Position numbers and translations under genes: made by a program. A stretch of DNA of 64,000 bases from Geoalkalibacter ferrihydriticus DSM 17813 (GTDB taxonomy: Bacteria > Desulfobacterota > Desulfuromonadia > Desulfuromonadales > Geoalkalibacteraceae), in assembly GCF_000820505.1 (NCBI RefSeq), contig NZ_JWJD01000004.1, positions 1 through 64,000 of the forward strand. Reading direction: 5' to 3'. Numbering within the stretch: the stretch's first letter is position 1; every line of letters begins with the position of its first letter. Below, one piece after another: positions 45,062 through 54,396 of the stretch. The notes below the pieces were generated by a model, which was not told where the DNA came from, did not search any database, and saw only the letters and a list, made by a program, of their open reading frames with translations.

Positions 45062-46657
45062 GTGCGCGTCAATCTCATCACCAAGGTGACCTTGGTCACG
45101 GGTGTCGTCCTGCTGGTGGCGATGGTGCTGTTCGCATTTATCAACGTCACGACACTCAAAAAGATCTTTCTTGAAGAAGCCATTCACGATGTCGACAATC
45201 TCAGCGAAACCCTCATCCGCTCAACGCACTACCAAATGCTAGAAGATGACCGCAAACGCGTCTACCAGATGATTCAGGAGGTCGGTACGCAGCGGGGCAT
45301 CGAGCATATTCGCCTGATCAACAAGGATGGGGAAATCACCTTTTCAACGGAGCGCGCCGAAATCGGCACGATTCTCGACAAAAACACCGAAGGCTGCAAT
45401 GTTTGTCACGCCGAAGACACGCCCCTGATCCACGCTTCCTCCATGAACCGCAGTCGCATTTTCGCAGATCGCGACGGCAAGGAGGTGCTCGGCATGGCCA
45501 GGGCCATCTATAACCAGGAAAGCTGCGCCACCGCCGACTGCCATTTCCATCCCCCCGACCTCAGCATGGTCGGCATTCTCGACGTCATCGTTTCCCTCGA
45601 CGGCATGCATATGCAAACCGCCACCTATCGCAACAACATCATCGTGCTGACCCTGATGCTCTTGCTGATTGTGGCGTCCTGCCTGACCCTGGTGACACAG
45701 AGGTTCATCACCAACCCACTCAGCAAACTACTCCACCATACCCAGAGGATCGCCCAGGGCGATTGGTCGCCTGTCGAGCTGAAGTCTCATGATGAATTCG
45801 GCAAGTTGGCCGGCGCCTTCAATGATATGACTCACAACCTCAAGCAGGCCCAGGACGAATTGGCCCAGTGGGGCTCTCAGCTCGAGGCCAAGGTTGAGGA
45901 ACGCACCCATGAAATCAAGAACATGCAGTCACGCCTTATTCGTTCGGAAAAAGTTGCATCCCTTGGTGAATTGGTGGCCGGCATCGCTCATGAACTGAAC
46001 AATCCTTTGACCGGGGTACTCATGTTTTCCTCGATGATCGCCGAGGATCCGCGACTGGACCCCGCCCTTAAACCCGATTTCGACACCATTATCCACGAAA
46101 CCCAGCGGTGCGCCGAAATCGTGCGCGGCCTGCTTGATTTCGCCCGCGAAAGCGTGCCCCAAAAATCGCACTGCGCGGTGGAACAGGTTCTCGAGCAAAC
46201 CCTGATTCTGGTATCTCACCATAGCTCCTTCCACGATATCCGCGTGGAGCGCGACTACGGTTCCCCCCCCCAGATTCTGGCCGACCCCAACCAACTTGAA
46301 CAAGTATTCATGAACCTTCTCATAAACGCCAGCCAAGCCATGGAAAACGGCGGAACGCTGAAGATCAAAACAGGAACCCTGAACCGGGATGCGCAGGTGT
46401 TTGTAAAAATCAGCGACAGCGGCTGTGGGATTGCGGAGGAAAATCTCACCAAAATCTTTGATCCGTTTTTTTCCACCAAGGGTCACAAGGGAACAGGACT
46501 GGGATTGTCCGTATCCTACGGCATCATCGAAAACCACGGTGGAAAAATCGAGGTGCAAAGCCGCATGGGGGAAGGCACCACCTTCACCGTTCTGCTGCCG
46601 GCCAGCTTTGAGCAGAAAAAACAGCGTGCCGAAAGCGGCCTGGCCGCCACCGCCTGA
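45062..46657 (+). CDS. Haem-binding sensor histidine kinase (CXXCH and CX4CH)
   Basis: A 531-residue membrane kinase. Two helices (8-29 and 192-212) enclose a periplasmic domain that carries CNVCH at 112-116 and CATADCH at 155-161. The first is a standard c-type haem site; the second is a CX4CH variant. Then come HAMP (213-265), a coiled coil, the H box with His310 in AHELNNPLTGV, and a complete ATPase domain (NLLINASQAMENGG, DSGCGI, GTGLGLSVSYG). This is an NtrB-type kinase, fitting the convergent sigma-54 regulator. The start is a GTG with AGGAG eight bases upstream. The same sensor domain recurs in the protein at 49551. Confidence 0.92.
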   Translation: MRVNLITKVTLVTGVVLLVAMVLFAFINVTTLKKIFLEEAIHDVDNLSETLIRSTHYQMLEDDRKRVYQMIQEVGTQRGIEHIRLINKDGEITFSTERAEIGTILDKNTEGCNVCHAEDTPLIHASSMNRSRIFADRDGKEVLGMARAIYNQESCATADCHFHPPDLSMVGILDVIVSLDGMHMQTATYRNNIIVLTLMLLLIVASCLTLVTQRFITNPLSKLLHHTQRIAQGDWSPVELKSHDEFGKLAGAFNDMTHNLKQAQDELAQWGSQLEAKVEERTHEIKNMQSRLIRSEKVASLGELVAGIAHELNNPLTGVLMFSSMIAEDPRLDPALKPDFDTIIHETQRCAEIVRGLLDFARESVPQKSHCAVEQVLEQTLILVSHHSSFHDIRVERDYGSPPQILADPNQLEQVFMNLLINASQAMENGGTLKIKTGTLNRDAQVFVKISDSGCGIAEENLTKIFDPFFSTKGHKGTGLGLSVSYGIIENHGGKIEVQSRMGEGTTFTVLLPASFEQKKQRAESGLAATA

Positions 46658-46733: not shown

Positions 46734-48155
46734 TTATGAATTTGCGGAATGCTCACGCACCGAGATACCCTGCTTTTTCAGCAAGGCCTGAAAGTTGGGG
46801 CGCAGCATGCCGACTTCTTCGGCGGCCCGCGTGATATTCCAATCGTTGCGTTTGAGAGCGTCGAGCACGAACGCTCGCTCAACAGGCGCCACGGCCTGCT
46901 CACGCACATGACGTTTGGTTTCCTTGAGTTCATCGGCCGTGCGCGGAACAAAATGACAAAACAATTGGTCATCTTCGCCCGCGGCGGACGGCAGCTCCAG
47001 GTCGTCCTCTTCGATCAGGTCATCTGCCGCCAGCACCACCGCACGCTCGATGACGTTTTCCAACTCGCGCACATTGCCGGGAAAAGAATGACGCTCGATA
47101 CACGCCATGGCCGCCGGAGTCATTCCGCGAATCTCCTTCCCCATTTCCCGCGAGAATTTTTGCAGAAAATGACCGACGAGGATCGGCAGGTCCCCAAGAC
47201 GCTCTCTCAGAGGCGGCAAATCGACGGGGATGATATTGAGACGAAAAAACAGGTCTTCACGGAACAGGCCCTCGCTGACCATCTCCTTGAGGCTTCGATT
47301 GGTCGCCGCGACCAGGCGAATATCAATGGGTACCGGCTTGGTGCCACCGATGGGCGTCACTTCGCGTTCCTGCAAGACCCGCAACAATTTGGCCTGAGTG
47401 GTGAGGCTGATATTGGATACTTCATCGAGAAACAAGGTGCCGCCATCCGCGACTTTAAACAAGCCGGTTTTGGTCTGTACGGCCCCGGTGAATGATCCCT
47501 TGACATGGCCGAAAAGTTCACTCTCCAGCAGAGTTTCCGCCAGAGACGTGCAGTCAACGGCAACAAACGCCTGATCTTTGCGCGGGCTGTTGCGATGGAC
47601 CGCCCGGGCGACCAATTCCTTACCGGTGCCGCTTTCGCCGGTGATCATGACGGTGCTATCGGTGGGCGCGACCTGAATAATACGACGATACACCTTCTGC
47701 ATCGCCTTGCTTTCACCAACGAAGGAATCAAAGCCGTGACGGTCTTTGAGTTCCTTCTTGAGATAGAAATTTTCTAGAAGCATCGCCCGCTGCCCGAGGG
47801 CTTTTTCGACGATGCCGAGGATCTGGTCAGGCGTGAAGGGCTTGGCGAGATAGTCGAAGGCGCCGTTCTTCATGGCCTCGACAGCGGTATCGACGGTCGA
47901 ATAGCCGGTGATGATGATCACCGGCACGTCGGGCTGCAGGATCCGGATGGCCTTGAGAACCTCCATGCCGCTCATGCCGGGCATTTTCAGGTCGGTAACG
48001 ACGATGTCAAAATCATCCTCCTGCAGACGCTCAACGGCAACCTGACCGCTGGCCGCTACATCGACCCGATACTTGTTGTTTTCGAGAATGCGCCGAATAC
48101 CCTCGCGTATCACGCTCTCGTCGTCAACCACCAGAATGCGCGCCTCATCCCTCAT
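46734..48155 (-). CDS. NtrC-family sigma-54-dependent response regulator
   Basis: A 473-residue activator: receiver domain 1-120 with Asp55 ([10 protein letters not shown]), AAA+ domain 140-370 with Walker A GESGTGKE and the sigma-54 contact loop GSFTGA (GAFTGA in most), and a Fis-type helix-turn-helix at the end ([25 protein letters not shown]). It activates sigma-54 promoters from a distance. The likely partner is the convergent haem-sensor kinase. A candidate target promoter lies 500 bases upstream on the other strand. The ATG at 48155 is used, a longer frame beginning with TTG being unlikely. Confidence 0.94.
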
Positions 48156-48767
48156 CTGACCTGCTCCCTCCAACGGCAACTATGTGCATGCTGAGCCCCT
48201 TGCCCGCGCCCCCAACCTATCATGGACTCCAGGTATCCCTATTTCTATACACAATATACGCAATCTGCTTTTTCATCCACCTGAAAAGGAAACATTTGCG
48301 CCGGTTATTGGGTATACGAAAACCTCCCCGGAACGCACCGATCCAGAGATTTCCGCGAAAAACATAGCGGCAAGATCATAACAGAACATTGTGCCCAACC
48401 CAAGAAGTGCCTGGGCCGGCGCCCCAAACTGCTATTTTTTTGCCGGGCACGTACATTTTTTTTATACAGGCCACCACACGCACCCGCACATCCCCTTACA
48501 CGCAGGCCTTACCCCTGCCTGGCGGCAGTAAAAAGACTTATCGCAACGGCTGGCTGCATATAATAAATATACATCTCGGCGAAAACTGAGTTCTTGCCCC
48601 TTTGCCGGAAAAAATCAAAACCTTCCTTATTATCGGGAAGTTAAAAAGAATTTGGTCAATCGGCTGCAGCTTGGCACAGCCAATGCTACGTTCCATGTTC
48701 AGTACAGCTTATGCCGCAAAAAGAAAGTGGTGACCGGCATTGGTCAATCGACGGGAGGAGGCGAGGG
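48156..48767. other. Divergent regulatory region between the NtrC-type gene and cytochrome b
   Basis: No convincing gene in 612 bases. This is long enough for upstream activator sites, and a sigma-54 promoter lies near its right end at 48671-48688. CTTCC...GGAAG forms a small dyad at 48633-48650. Several T runs (48435-48442, 48453-48460) occur without a clean stem. Confidence 0.5.
48671..48688 (+). promoter_or_regulatory. Sigma-54 (RpoN) promoter of the cytochrome b operon
   Basis: TTGGCACAGCCAATGCTA has the -24 element TGGCAC and the -12 element TGCT, with GG and GC exactly ten bases apart. It matches the RpoN consensus TGGCACNNNNNTTGCW at all but one fixed position. The predicted start near 48698 lies about 70 bases before the cytochrome b gene. 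Confidence 0.75.
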
Positions 48768-49469
48768 ATGAAGCATAAACAAAAAATTTATCTGACGCCA
48801 ACGCCGGTGCGCATCTGGCACTGGCTCAACGCGTTCGGCTTTCTCGCGCTGATCTTCAGTGGCGCCCAGATTCGCTATCCTGAATACGTTAACTTCTTCG
48901 GCAGTTACAAGGCTGCCATCAGACTGCATGACACCGCCGGCATCGTGGTGTCCATTTCTTTCTGCCTGTGGTTGATTTATTACCTGATCGTGGCGCGCAG
49001 TCTTCTGAAACTCTACCTCCCCACCAAGGAAGATTTACGTCTTGGGCTCTTCAGGCAGGGCCTGTTCTATTTTTTCAATTATTTCCGCGGAAAACCCAAT
49101 CCCCACGTCACGACGCCGGAAAACAAATTCAACCCCTTGCAGAAATCCGCCTATGTAATCATCATGATGGTGCTGGTGCCACTGGTGATACTCTCCGGCT
49201 TGCTGCTGATGAATATCGAGCTGTTGCGCCCTGTCGTGTTGTTTCTGGGTGGAGTGAAATTCGTCGCGGGCGCCCACTTTTTGTTGGCCTGCGCGCTTAT
49301 CGCCTTTTTATTCACTCACGTCTACCTGGCGACCCTCGGACACACCCCTTTTGCCCACTTCAAACCCATGTGGACGGGATGGGAGGAGCACGAGGACGCT
49401 ACAGGGAAAGACGATGCTCCGGGCAGCCAGGCAAAGCCCGCAGCGCGCACCGAGCCAAAACAGCACTGA
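48768..49469 (+). CDS. Membrane cytochrome b (thiosulfate reductase/formate dehydrogenase gamma type)
   Basis: A 233-residue inner-membrane protein with four main helices. Candidate haem b ligands are His18 (RIWHWLNAFGF), His54 (IRLHDTAG) and histidines in AHFLLACALIAFLFTHVYLATLGH near the end. Such subunits pass electrons between the quinone pool and a periplasmic partner. No large catalytic subunit is nearby; the partner may be one of the c-type proteins around it. GGGAGGAGG precedes the ATG at 48768, just behind a likely sigma-54 promoter. The C-terminal tail is charged and Ala/Pro-rich. Confidence 0.85.
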   Translation: MKHKQKIYLTPTPVRIWHWLNAFGFLALIFSGAQIRYPEYVNFFGSYKAAIRLHDTAGIVVSISFCLWLIYYLIVARSLLKLYLPTKEDLRLGLFRQGLFYFFNYFRGKPNPHVTTPENKFNPLQKSAYVIIMMVLVPLVILSGLLLMNIELLRPVVLFLGGVKFVAGAHFLLACALIAFLFTHVYLATLGHTPFAHFKPMWTGWEEHEDATGKDDAPGSQAKPAARTEPKQH

Positions 49470-49550: not shown

Positions 49551-50432
49551 GTGAGCACTCTAAAAACCATTGTCTCAAGGGCCCTGGTGCCGGTCGGCCT
49601 GACCGTCACCGGGTTCGTCATAGTCTGCAGCATCCTTCTGTACTCGTTCGTCAAGCAAGACCTGATTCAGGACACCATTCAGCGCGAAATCCAGCTCGCC
49701 GATATCATTGTCAAGGCAACGCGCTATTCCATGCTCAAGGATGACCGCGAATCCCTGCGCCAAACCATCAACGATATCGGTGGGCAAAAAGGCGTCGAAC
49801 ACGTACGCATTTTCAATAAACGCGGTGTGATCATGTTCTCCGCCCACGAGGAGGAAGTCTTACAGATGCTGGACAAGGAAGTCGCCGGCTGCATCGAGTG
49901 CCATGCCGGCGAAGTTCCAGCTGTACACCTCGGCCCCATGGACCAGGCGCGTGAATTCAAAAACGAGCAAGGCAAGCCGGTTATCGCCATCACCGCCGCC
50001 GTTTACAACGAGCCAAGCTGCTACACCGGAGCCTGCCATGTACACTCGCCCGATGAACAGATTCTCGGCACCCTTGACATCGGCATGTCCCAGGCGCCCC
50101 TACTGCAATCCCTGGCCACCTTGCGCATCCGCCTGATCATCTTCTGCCTGATGGTCATGGTCCTCACCGTGGGCGGCGTCATTGCCTTGCTGCGGCGCAA
50201 CGTCTTGCTGCCGGTGCGCCAGTTGGTGTATTTTGCCGACAGGATCAGCGACGGCGACCTGAAGGCTCAGGAACCCGAAGGTACCGAGGAAGTGGCAAGC
50301 CTGGCCGCCAATTTTAAGCGCCTCGCTCAAGACCGCCACCAATGCGATGTCAAACTGGAGGAACTGCAGAAGAGAATCGACGACCTGACGCGCGAGATCA
50401 AGGCGCGGGAAAACGCCTCCAAAAGCCTGTAA
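49551..50432 (+). CDS. Haem-sensor HAMP protein without kinase domain
   Basis: A 293-residue membrane protein. Helices at 8-33 and 193-216 enclose a periplasmic domain with CIECH (114-118) and CYTGACH (157-163, CX4CH). This domain aligns along its whole length with that of the kinase at 45062 (e.g. RYSMLKDDRESLRQTINDIG against HYQMLEDDRKRVYQMIQEVG). A HAMP domain and a coiled coil follow, and the protein stops there, with no kinase, methyl-accepting or cyclase part. The start is GTG with GGGAGG. It lies between cytochrome b and a small membrane protein. It may be a redox subunit, a decoy sensor or a partner of the kinase. Confidence 0.88.
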   Translation: MSTLKTIVSRALVPVGLTVTGFVIVCSILLYSFVKQDLIQDTIQREIQLADIIVKATRYSMLKDDRESLRQTINDIGGQKGVEHVRIFNKRGVIMFSAHEEEVLQMLDKEVAGCIECHAGEVPAVHLGPMDQAREFKNEQGKPVIAITAAVYNEPSCYTGACHVHSPDEQILGTLDIGMSQAPLLQSLATLRIRLIIFCLMVMVLTVGGVIALLRRNVLLPVRQLVYFADRISDGDLKAQEPEGTEEVASLAANFKRLAQDRHQCDVKLEELQKRIDDLTREIKARENASKSL

Positions 50433-50454: not shown

Positions 50455-50991
50455 ATGAGGATCCGGCAGAAATTGCGCCGCCCGCCCCCGGAAACGCCGG
50501 AGAGTGGTACGTCCAACGACAAACAGGCGGACGCTCAAGCGCGCATCCAGCACCTTCAGGTCCTATCGCGTCGCGGCCTTTGGGGGTTGGCCGTTTTTCT
50601 GCTGATGAGCCTTGCGGCCTTCGGCCACGAAACCCTGTTGCCGCAAATTTCCCCCGGCGTACGCTCCGCCCTGGGCAGCGCCCCGCCCACCAATTTCATC
50701 AGCATCGCCCTTGTGGTGTACAGTTTCTCCGCCCTGGTGCTGATTCTCTCGCGCATGAGTTCTGGTGAAGGCAAATACAAAGGCTGGTCGCACCTCGGTT
50801 ATCTGTTTGGCTTCTATGCCTTTTACTATTACGGCGAAGCGCTCGGCACTAATTTCTGGGCCGTATTCGCCGCCGGCATCACGATCATGTCACTGGAATA
50901 CTATCAGATGTGGAGCTTCTGTTCCGAGTCCATCGCCAAGGAAAAAGAGGCCCTCGCCAAAGCCGAACGCCTGGAGAAATTCAACTCTTAG
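50455..50991 (+). CDS. Small membrane protein of a cytochrome b operon
   Basis: A 178-residue protein with a basic, Pro-rich N-terminus (about 40 residues, cytoplasmic), a first helix 42-60, then two or three more between 83 and 150, and a charged helical tail (SIAKEKEALAKAERLEKFNS). I do not recognise it with certainty; similar proteins in Desulfuromonadota are sometimes labelled menaquinol oxidoreductase. It starts 22 bases after the HAMP protein gene, so it should belong to the same complex or pathway as cytochrome b. Confidence 0.75.
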   Translation: MRIRQKLRRPPPETPESGTSNDKQADAQARIQHLQVLSRRGLWGLAVFLLMSLAAFGHETLLPQISPGVRSALGSAPPTNFISIALVVYSFSALVLILSRMSSGEGKYKGWSHLGYLFGFYAFYYYGEALGTNFWAVFAAGITIMSLEYYQMWSFCSESIAKEKEALAKAERLEKFNS

Positions 50992-51115: not shown

Positions 51116-51403
51116 ATGAAGAAGTTCGTCGTGATTGCCCTGGTCGTCCTCTTTGCCGCTGCCACCGGCATTGCCGCCCAGAAAGCCCAGGATATCTACA
51201 CCTACGAAGCCCGCAATGGCAACGTAACCTTTGACCATGTGAAGCACATCGAATATGAAGATGGTACCTGCGTTGCCTGCCATGGCGAAGGCGAGCCCGG
51301 CGCCATCGCTATCGATCGCGACTCCGCTCATGGCGCGTCCTGCAAAGACTGCCACGACCAGAAAGGCGGCCCCACCCGCTGCGGCGAGTGCCACATCCGC
51401 TAA
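51116..51403 (+). CDS. Triheme cytochrome c7 (PpcA family)
   Basis: A 95-residue periplasmic cytochrome: signal peptide 1-20, three haem sites CVACH (52-56), CKDCH (76-80) and CGECH (89-93), with axial-type histidines at 41, 44 and 72. The order NGNVTFDHVKH...GGPTRCGECH follows PpcA of Geobacter. These proteins carry electrons from the inner membrane to outer-membrane cytochromes. AGGAGG precedes the ATG at 51116. It has its own promoter and terminator although it lies just behind the cytochrome b operon. Confidence 0.94.
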   Translation: MKKFVVIALVVLFAAATGIAAQKAQDIYTYEARNGNVTFDHVKHIEYEDGTCVACHGEGEPGAIAIDRDSAHGASCKDCHDQKGGPTRCGECHIR

Positions 51404-51604: not shown

Positions 51605-52288
51605 GTGTCTACAGAAGCCGTCATTCACCCAAAATACCAGATGGTCTCCCAGCGTCGGGTACTGCAATGGGTGCTGCTGCCCATCATGCTGATCACCATT
51701 GCTCTGGGCTGGAAATATCCGCTGCTGGGCTTTAGCGTCGCGGCCGCCATGGCGACCGGTATGGTTGGCGGGGTCATCCGCGGGCGCTATGTGTGCGGCA
51801 ACCTCTGTCCACGCGGCGCATTCTTCGATCGAATAATCGCCCCCCTTGCTCCGCGCGGCAAGGTTCCCGCGTTCATGCGCGGGATGCCCTTTCGGCTGGT
51901 GGTTCTCGCCGCGCTGATGGGGTTCATGGTGTGGCGCATTGCGCAGAATCCCGGCGATCTCAACCACTGGGGGTTTGTTTTCTGGACCATGTGCGCGGTG
52001 ACCACCGCTGTCGGCCTGGGTCTAGCTTTCACCCTGCATCCCCGTGCCTGGTGCGCCATCTGTCCCATGGGCACCATGCAGAACCTGCTTGGCGGGCATA
52101 AACTGCGCCTGCAGATTGCCGCGTCCTGCCGCTCCTGCGGCAAGTGCGAAACGGCTTGCCCCATGAATCTGTCCATTGCCGCAGACAAACGGCTGGGCGC
52201 TCTCCAGGATCGAGATTGCCTCAAGTGTCCCGAATGCATTGCCGCCTGTCCGGCCAGTGCGCTGAAATGGCCGGAAGCCAAAAGCTAA
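51605..52288 (+). CDS. NapH/CcoG-like membrane ferredoxin
   Basis: A 227-residue protein with four membrane helices (about 20-37, 42-58, 96-113, 125-143) and the CGNLCPRG and CAICPMG motifs typical of NapH-type quinol dehydrogenases, each starting a CX3CP site at the membrane. Two 4Fe-4S clusters follow in CRSCGKCETACP and CLKCPECIAACP. It would move electrons from menaquinol to a redox partner. No nap or other terminal reductase gene is nearby. The start is a GTG with AAGGAG upstream, behind a strong promoter. Confidence 0.9.
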   Translation: MSTEAVIHPKYQMVSQRRVLQWVLLPIMLITIALGWKYPLLGFSVAAAMATGMVGGVIRGRYVCGNLCPRGAFFDRIIAPLAPRGKVPAFMRGMPFRLVVLAALMGFMVWRIAQNPGDLNHWGFVFWTMCAVTTAVGLGLAFTLHPRAWCAICPMGTMQNLLGGHKLRLQIAASCRSCGKCETACPMNLSIAADKRLGALQDRDCLKCPECIAACPASALKWPEAKS

Positions 52289-54320: not shown

Positions 54321-54396
54321 GCCACCCTAGCTCAGCTGGTAGAGCAGCTGATTCGTAATCAGCAGGTCGTCGGTTCGAATCCGATGGGTGGCTCCA
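54321..54396 (+). tRNA. tRNA-Thr (anticodon CGT)
   Basis: A full 76-base cloverleaf with encoded CCA. Acceptor GCCACCC/GGGTGGC, D arm AGCTCAGCTGGTAGAGC, anticodon stem GCTGA/TCAGC with loop TTCGTAA (anticodon CGT, reading ACG), T arm GTCGGTTCGAATCCGAT. A terminator follows at once. Confidence 0.97.

Follow-up and report, generated by a model that had tools for sequence, protein, structure and literature searches.

A CbcD-like membrane protein with two haem-c motifs and no output domain in Geoalkalibacter ferrihydriticus

Introduction

What is the role of a membrane protein that resembles the sensor half of a histidine kinase, yet ends shortly after its HAMP region and carries no output domain? 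This question is raised by a gene at positions 49551-50432 of the window, the 64,000-nucleotide stretch of contig NZ_JWJD01000004.1 of Geoalkalibacter ferrihydriticus DSM 17813 analysed here. A preliminary description made from the sequence offered three options: a two-haem electron carrier of a cytochrome b complex, a heterodimer partner of the neighbouring kinase, and a decoy.

The published cluster that bears on this locus is Cbc5 of Geobacter. According to the accessible parts of the cited papers, it comprises CbcA with 7 haems, the b-type CbcB, CbcC (OmcQ) with 12 or 11 haems, the HAMP-containing CbcD with 2 haem sites, and the membrane protein CbcE (PMC7894505, PMC11434368, PMC10470525, PMC10989804), encoded in that order by Gmet_2928-2932. 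In the same excerpts, the Cbc complex is termed putative or predicted, and CbcD is labelled a cytochrome c family protein, a 2-haem HAMP-containing subunit or, in two papers, a monohaem cytochrome. Both CbcD and CbcE are named, and the portions of the literature available contained no demonstrated function for either. Two CX2-4CH motifs are given in the excerpted text of PMC8396549 for just two G. sulfurreducens proteins, GSU0591 and GSU0599, of which GSU0599 is a two-component protein with two haem motifs.

Gene, architecture and predicted fold

The reading frame begins with GTG behind a GGGAGG box and closes with a normal TAA stop. The next ATG, at 50455, lies 22 bases past the stop with no kinase remnant in between, just as the preliminary description stated. 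The features of the locus are collected in Table 1.

Table 1. Features of the cbcD-like gene and its surroundings (positions in the window)
Feature	Position	Strand	Remarks
Sensor histidine kinase	45062..46657	+	homologous two-haem sensor domain
Sigma-54-dependent response regulator	46734..48179	-	NtrC/AtoC type
Sigma-54 -24/-12-like candidate site	48672..48687	+	upstream of cbcB-like gene, one mismatch
cbcB-like cytochrome b561 (PF01292)	48768..49469	+	E 1.6e-27
cbcD-like gene	49551..50432	+	293 aa; TM1, diheme Cache domain, TM2, HAMP remnant, helical tail
TM1 of cbcD-like protein	49581..49649	+	residues 11-33; helix borders set by the authors
Haem-c motif 1, CXXCH	49890..49904	+	residues 114-118; 90/93 homologues; predicted haem attachment
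Haem-c motif 2, CX4CH	50019..50039	+	residues 157-163; 92/93 homologues; predicted haem attachment
TM2 of cbcD-like protein	50127..50198	+	residues 193-216
HAMP remnant and variable helical tail	50199..50429	+	residues 217-262 and 263-293
cbcE-like gene	50455..50991	+	178-aa membrane protein, four predicted TM helices, long terminal helices; AlphaFold2 pLDDT 88.9
Triheme cytochrome c7 (PpcA-like)	51119..51403	+	
NapH-like membrane 4Fe-4S protein	51605..52288	+	TIGR02163, 56.1 bits, below cut-off 213
tRNA-Thr(CGT)	54321-54396	+	the window's only tRNA and only Rfam match at gathering score

Pfam returns only sub-threshold matches for the protein, chiefly sCache_3_2 (25.8 bits, cut-off 28.4). The HAMP match scores 24.2 bits against a cut-off of 25 (residues 213-260), Mcp40H-20_sensor (PF21563) scores 17.7 bits against 27, and no HisKA, HATPase or MCP domain is found by Pfam. 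At E 0.01, the Mcp40H-20_sensor profile is matched by 10 of 11 family members and the HAMP profile by 7 of 11. The C-terminus lies 33 residues beyond the HAMP match, close to the approximately 30 given earlier. The sensor-HAMP architecture without output domain is therefore as first described, and the same output-less layout is conserved in relatives.

In the AlphaFold2 model (mean pLDDT 77.3, pTM 0.49), a transmembrane (TM) helix is followed by a mixed alpha/beta domain, a second TM helix, a further helix and a long terminal helix (246-291). Fold searches with this model matched the WalK sensor 4ywz_B (Z 12.3, rmsd 2.4 over 136 residues) and 9a5d_A (WalK, integrative model; Z 14.2). As modelled, the protein is a single-Cache/PDC sensor fold placed between two TM helices. 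A sequence search of the PDB gave no credible relative, the best hit being the HAMP of NarQ at E 0.035 with a profile.

The single row of 93 that does not match CX4CH has an alignment gap at the His, and the first motif is missing in 3 of 93 CbcD homologues. Because the second motif is of the CX4CH type, a count restricted to CXXCH gives one haem for the CbcD-like protein, and the published monohaem label of CbcD probably goes back to such a count. Met61 is invariant and common to CbcD and all 57 neighbouring kinases. In the homologues at loci L160, L164, L165 and L180-L183 (same order), motif 1 is gone together with its loop, with CX4CH and most of TM1 and TM2 retained; the kinases adjoining CbcD at L160, L164 and L165 keep both haem motifs.

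Assignment to the CbcD family and the window cluster

On the basis of gene order, haem counts and the published annotation of Cbc5, the protein at 49551-50432 is assigned as a CbcD homologue and the product of the next gene as CbcE, GSU0591 being compared by its description only. The features used for the assignment are two motifs of the CX2-4CH kind, the lack of an output domain, a cbcE gene immediately after it and a cytochrome b of the cbcB type within the cluster. The protein is a member of a known but little-studied family. Geobacter CbcD (GSU0591, Gmet_2931), as far as the available descriptions go, likewise has 2 haem sites and CbcE in its cluster; it is described as HAMP-containing, and the HAMP match of the window protein falls slightly below the Pfam cut-off. 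The Geobacter cluster differs in having CbcA and CbcC, whereas in the window CbcE is followed by c7 and the NapH-like protein.

The window order of CbcB, CbcD, CbcE, c7 and NapH-like protein recurs at L149 and L152, and in none of these three clusters is a 7-haem CbcA or a multihaem CbcC adjacent. Their absence next to CbcD marks the window cluster as a variant and is a property of the cluster, not of the CbcD protein. Elsewhere in this genome, a different contig carries a CbcA-CbcB pair whose CbcB is 69% identical to that of the window. The order is changed at L069 and L150, where cytochrome b and c7 stand behind the regulator, CbcD and CbcE. The NapH-like protein and a PpcA-like c7 occur together with a cytochrome b gene also at L149, L152 and L069.

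To judge from sequence, ATG 48768 seems a likelier start of the cbcB-like gene than 48711. Sequence searches of the PDB yielded nothing at E 0.01 for the window cytochrome b and no credible relative of CbcE (best E 0.12), and a fold search with CbcE gave nothing at E 0.001 or below. Pfam matches obtained for 16 CbcE members (Yip1 5, DUF2304 5, MFS 1) are mutually discordant and are not believed. No inverted repeats were found in two intergenic stretches of the window.

Two further groups of haem proteins are similar in layout. The available descriptions of the Geobacter chemoreceptors GSU0582 and GSU0935 (PDB 3B47, 3B42) give a c-type haem sensor: the haem is bound covalently in a PAS/Cache-like domain of the periplasm, which is flanked by two TM helices, and HAMP comes next. 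Their single haem and MCP output contrast with the two motifs and missing output of the window protein, and the CbcD-like profile overlaps only weakly with 3b42 (E 0.25). Stand-alone sCache_heme proteins (DUF3365/Tll0287) are likewise haem Cache proteins without a signalling module, and a redox-related role is proposed for them in the accessible text of PMC12889525. Compared with these, the window protein adds two TM helices, CX4CH and a regular partner gene, and no Tll0287-like profile appears among the 9 Pfam families listed for it at E up to 1.

Homologues and the question of truncation

Five places in the genome itself match the protein at E 0.01, the protein included. Apart from the protein's own gene, only the full kinase at 45062-46657 is a close match (32% over query residues 16-286, E 5e-50), in agreement with the earlier observation that its sensor half aligns with that of a full kinase; the next match has E 4e-7. 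In the window's family, 5 of 6 genomes match, its own included, and all five hold an output-less copy. At the level of the order, 88 of 136 genomes match, and an output-less homologue (open frame of at most 370 aa) is present in at least 83 of the 136 by hand count among the matches listed. A draw from the phylum gave matches, output-less or not, in 126 of 395 genomes. Closed frames of 243-321 aa are found in 98 of 100 homologue rows, duplicates included. Four pattern matches on viral contigs included no relative.

For the trees, 93 of the 100 rows were kept after removal of duplicates, unclosed frames and L090, whose frame of only 154 aa was also excluded from identity counts. In a tree of 154 sensor halves, which included four further kinases as an outgroup, the 93 distinct output-less proteins lie on one side of a branch with support 100, and the 57 neighbouring kinases on one side of another with support 99. 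The branches separating the two groups are long (0.72 and 0.6 changes per column). The output-less proteins are one clade apart from the neighbouring kinases. Consequently, the protein at 49551-50432 is not a truncation. The preliminary description had judged it no obvious truncation, with the proviso that its homologues might all prove to carry a kinase or methyl-accepting domain; instead, they include a large output-less group. In-frame stops were flagged in five matches, four of one genus and one elsewhere, and all five stretches were inspected. At L180, L181 and L183 the flagged stop is the end of the protein, and at L182 and L184 the alignment finishes before any stop.

Conservation in CbcD and in the neighbouring kinases

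Mean pairwise identity was compared over 55 genomes holding both CbcD and the kinase. CbcD exceeds the kinases in TM1 (0.644 vs 0.398), TM2 (0.615 vs 0.353) and the periplasmic domain (0.530 vs 0.421), and the reverse holds for HAMP (0.284 vs 0.441). The CbcD tail reaches 0.058, and the HisKA and ATPase parts of the kinases reach 0.628 and 0.595. With 33 representatives below 75% identity, the differences between CbcD and kinase were +0.271 for TM1, +0.276 for TM2, +0.080 for the periplasmic domain and -0.140 for HAMP, all four with 95% bootstrap intervals that exclude zero. Relative to the kinases, constraint in CbcD has shifted from HAMP to the TM helices, a pattern newly described here. Since the periplasmic domain is also more conserved in CbcD, the contrast is not confined to the membrane.

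At the level of residues, the family signature of TM1 consists of A11, P14, V15, T20, G21, F22, C26 and L30. The HAMP residues Asp244, Gly247 and Asn254, present in nearly all 57 kinases, are mostly lost in CbcD; the HAMP glycine occurs in 56 of 57 kinases and is Gly in 8 of 93 CbcD homologues. The kinase residues Glu245 and Met256 correspond to Glu in 66 of 93 and to Met in 30 of 93 CbcD proteins. The remnant in CbcD is marked by Pro221 (93/93), Leu225 (88/93) and Glu247 (66/93), and the tail is recognisably similar within the window's genus and family. Mirror-tree correlations of CbcD over the 55 genomes were 0.78 with CbcE, 0.76 with the kinase sensor and 0.80 with the kinase domain. These values do not discriminate between the three and do not single out CbcE as the partner of CbcD.

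The CbcD-CbcE pair and its cores

Gene neighbourhoods were studied in the best 80 of 123 loci found with the output-less query. Such a set cannot show the frequency of kinase-bearing versions, which is addressed by the family, order and phylum searches above. Genes in relatives were called with a longest-ORF script and tblastn, so that some may have been missed. CbcE directly follows CbcD in 78 of these 80 loci, the other two stopping at a contig border, and the gap is at most 118 bases in 74 of the 78. This near-constant pairing is reported here for the first time.

To count as nearby, a core had to share the strand of CbcD and lie no more than 9 kb upstream or 7 kb downstream of it. Among the best 80 of 123 loci, 68 have at least 3.5 kb upstream, and 64 of them have a core nearby: CbcB-type only in 33, HmcC/NrfD-like only in 29 and both in 2, with neither in the remaining 4. 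Where the contig extends far enough, the HmcC/NrfD-like core comes with an HmcB-like Fe-S protein and a 5-haem cytochrome. Hmc/Hyb-type modules (HmcB, HmcC) replace CbcA-CbcB upstream of CbcD-CbcE in some relatives, but not in the window cluster. The Hmc-like module of one relative was tested and scored below the cut-offs (HmcB 404 vs 420 bits, HmcC 346 vs 550 bits). The collection of papers searched contained none that mentions both HmcC and CbcD.

CbcC-like matches occur in 43 of the best 80 of 123 loci, and many type-A relatives have both CbcA and CbcC. These relatives show the published Cbc5 order, often with the kinase and sigma-54 regulator alongside. By haem counts, L159 and L163 have a 7-haem protein, b561, a 9- or 12-haem protein, the CbcD homologue and a CbcE-like protein, and further loci show the same order by similarity. 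Over the 100 rows, the core was labelled A in 49, B in 40 and none in 11, with 7 labels assigned by hand from gene order, which altered two. With 82 labelled rows placed on the CbcD tree, a minimum of 11 changes of core label is needed, and well-supported branches force no fewer than 7 of them. The core near CbcD has changed repeatedly between the CbcB type and the HmcBC/NrfD-like type, a further new observation; as some genomes hold more than one CbcD copy, duplication may underlie part of the changes.

Two other arrangements were observed. At L134 and L135 the cores are in tandem, with CbcA, CytB and a CbcE-like protein followed by a 5-haem protein, HmcB-like, NrfD-like, CbcC, CbcD and CbcE. 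At L072, L073 and L154, CbcD-CbcE lies behind a kinase/regulator pair weakly matching that of the window, and no quinol-oxidoreductase core was recognised nearby.

Kinase, regulator and sigma-54-like sites

Flanks of 9 kb or more upstream and 7 kb or more downstream are available in 39 of the best 80 of 123 loci; 29 of these have a strong kinase match and 35 the regulator. BccR is the sigma-54 regulator of cbcBA. Across the whole window, sigma-54-like matches are as frequent as expected (5 observed, 5.5 expected). In each of the five window-type loci, the cytochrome b gene has a site of this kind in front of it, which would fit the adjacent sigma-54 regulator. Upstream of CbcA or the 5-haem gene in the wider set, sites were found in 6 of 76 cases, against 0.27 expected from mononucleotide shuffles and 0 on the reverse strand. 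With so few first genes preceded by one, the site is not general.

Proposed role and alternative explanations

The best explanation, which is considered reasonably probable, is a diheme subunit of the CbcD family that transfers electrons together with CbcE, beside a quinol-oxidising core, rather than serving in signalling. It would be a membrane-anchored periplasmic Cache domain with two c-type haems, of common descent with the sensor half of the kinase next to it. The output domain is proposed to be missing because the protein no longer signals through one: the haem domain would do the work, HAMP would be a relic, and the TM helices would dock CbcD against CbcE and the quinol-oxidising core. 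The haems would then relay electrons between the core and periplasmic cytochromes. In this cluster the core would be the cytochrome b561 CbcB and the periplasmic partner probably the triheme c7; in relatives the partner would be the multihaem CbcC/OmcQ. From the sequences, we infer haem attachment, the direction of electron flow and contact with CbcE and CbcB.

The option of a two-haem carrier, already among those of the preliminary description, agrees with this evidence and with the published annotation of CbcD in the accessible text of PMC7894505 and PMC10470525. Against it stand the HAMP region, still partly recognisable, and the loss of motif 1 in the 3 of 93 homologues. A 2026 preprint, in the parts of the sources at hand, regards the presence of HAMP in a haem-Cache protein as indicating signalling. 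Expression data are a further point against. During DIET in G. metallireducens, according to the excerpts available, cbcA and cbcB rose 29-fold and 42-fold, and cbcC, cbcD and cbcE 2-3-fold (PMC10470525); transcript changes of cbcA and cbcB exceed those of the other three genes in a second paper as well (PMC10989804). Such unequal induction does not look like that of one tight complex.

A broader proposal is held tentatively, with slightly more doubt than belief. CbcD-CbcE may be a receptor-derived adaptor that joins structurally unrelated menaquinol-oxidising cores (b561-type CbcBA and NrfD-type HmcBC-like) to one electron exit and one kinase/regulator pair. The cores would have been swapped repeatedly while the adaptor was kept, and the TM helices of the receptor would have turned into a docking surface. 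The shift of constraint, the single tree group and the retention of the pair with two types of core suggest a signalling receptor that became a respiratory subunit. This leads to testable predictions for the electron route from the menaquinone pool to the periplasm in metal-reducing bacteria.

The main alternative to an electron-transfer subunit is a redox co-sensor. As part of the quinol-oxidising complex, CbcD would use its haems to read the electron load, and it would tune the neighbouring kinase through its own TM helices, through CbcE or within a mixed assembly. The haem motifs and Met61 shared with the kinase leave room for redox sensing by CbcD, and a kinase and a regulator accompany most of the loci with wide flanks, but such a kinase could be there just to regulate the operon beside it. 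The predicted structure of CbcE has long terminal helices, and, in the parts of the sources at hand, NO-sensor properties are reported for haem-Cache domains fused to signalling modules (PMC12889525). However, CbcD has for the most part lost the HAMP Asp, Gly and Asn found in nearly all kinases, its TM sequences differ from theirs, and two solitary copies terminate just past TM2. The lost motif, common Met61, frequent kinase and regulator, remnant HAMP and family-similar tail together leave the co-sensor a minor but appreciable share of belief; it is considered unlikely.

A heterodimer partner or decoy, forming a mixed sensor dimer with the kinase through the common sensor-HAMP fold, is improbable. 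The 32% identity across the sensor half and the genetic linkage to the kinase speak for it, but the linkage is tighter to CbcE (78/80) and to the core (64/68) than to the kinase (29/39) among the best 80 of 123 loci. CbcD and kinases are, moreover, separated by the long branches described above. Two findings further weaken the earlier suggestion of such a partner or decoy: conservation in CbcD is highest in the TM helices and, the tail aside, lowest in HAMP, and a pair of solitary copies stops after TM2. A functionless recent truncation of a kinase or chemoreceptor, to which the HAMP remnant and variable tail might point, has a negligible chance given the single tree group spread through the order, the closed frames and the conserved haem motifs and TM helices, and an output domain predicted at the locus in near relatives was looked for and not borne out.

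Solitary copies

Three solitary second copies of CbcD-like genes were found, at L185 (7042-7716, minus strand), L186 (6880-7560, minus strand) and L187 (6297-7169, plus strand). No match to CbcE or a core was found within the 13 kb taken around each. All three keep both haem motifs. The copies at L185 and L186 stop right after TM2 and have no HAMP, which is reported here for the first time, and that at L187 keeps a HAMP-like stretch. According to the authors' reading of the sequences, P14, T20 and F22 of TM1 are altered in all three copies, two of which retain G21. Near the solitary copies at L185 and L186 there is a gene encoding a 1079-aa multi-TM protein.
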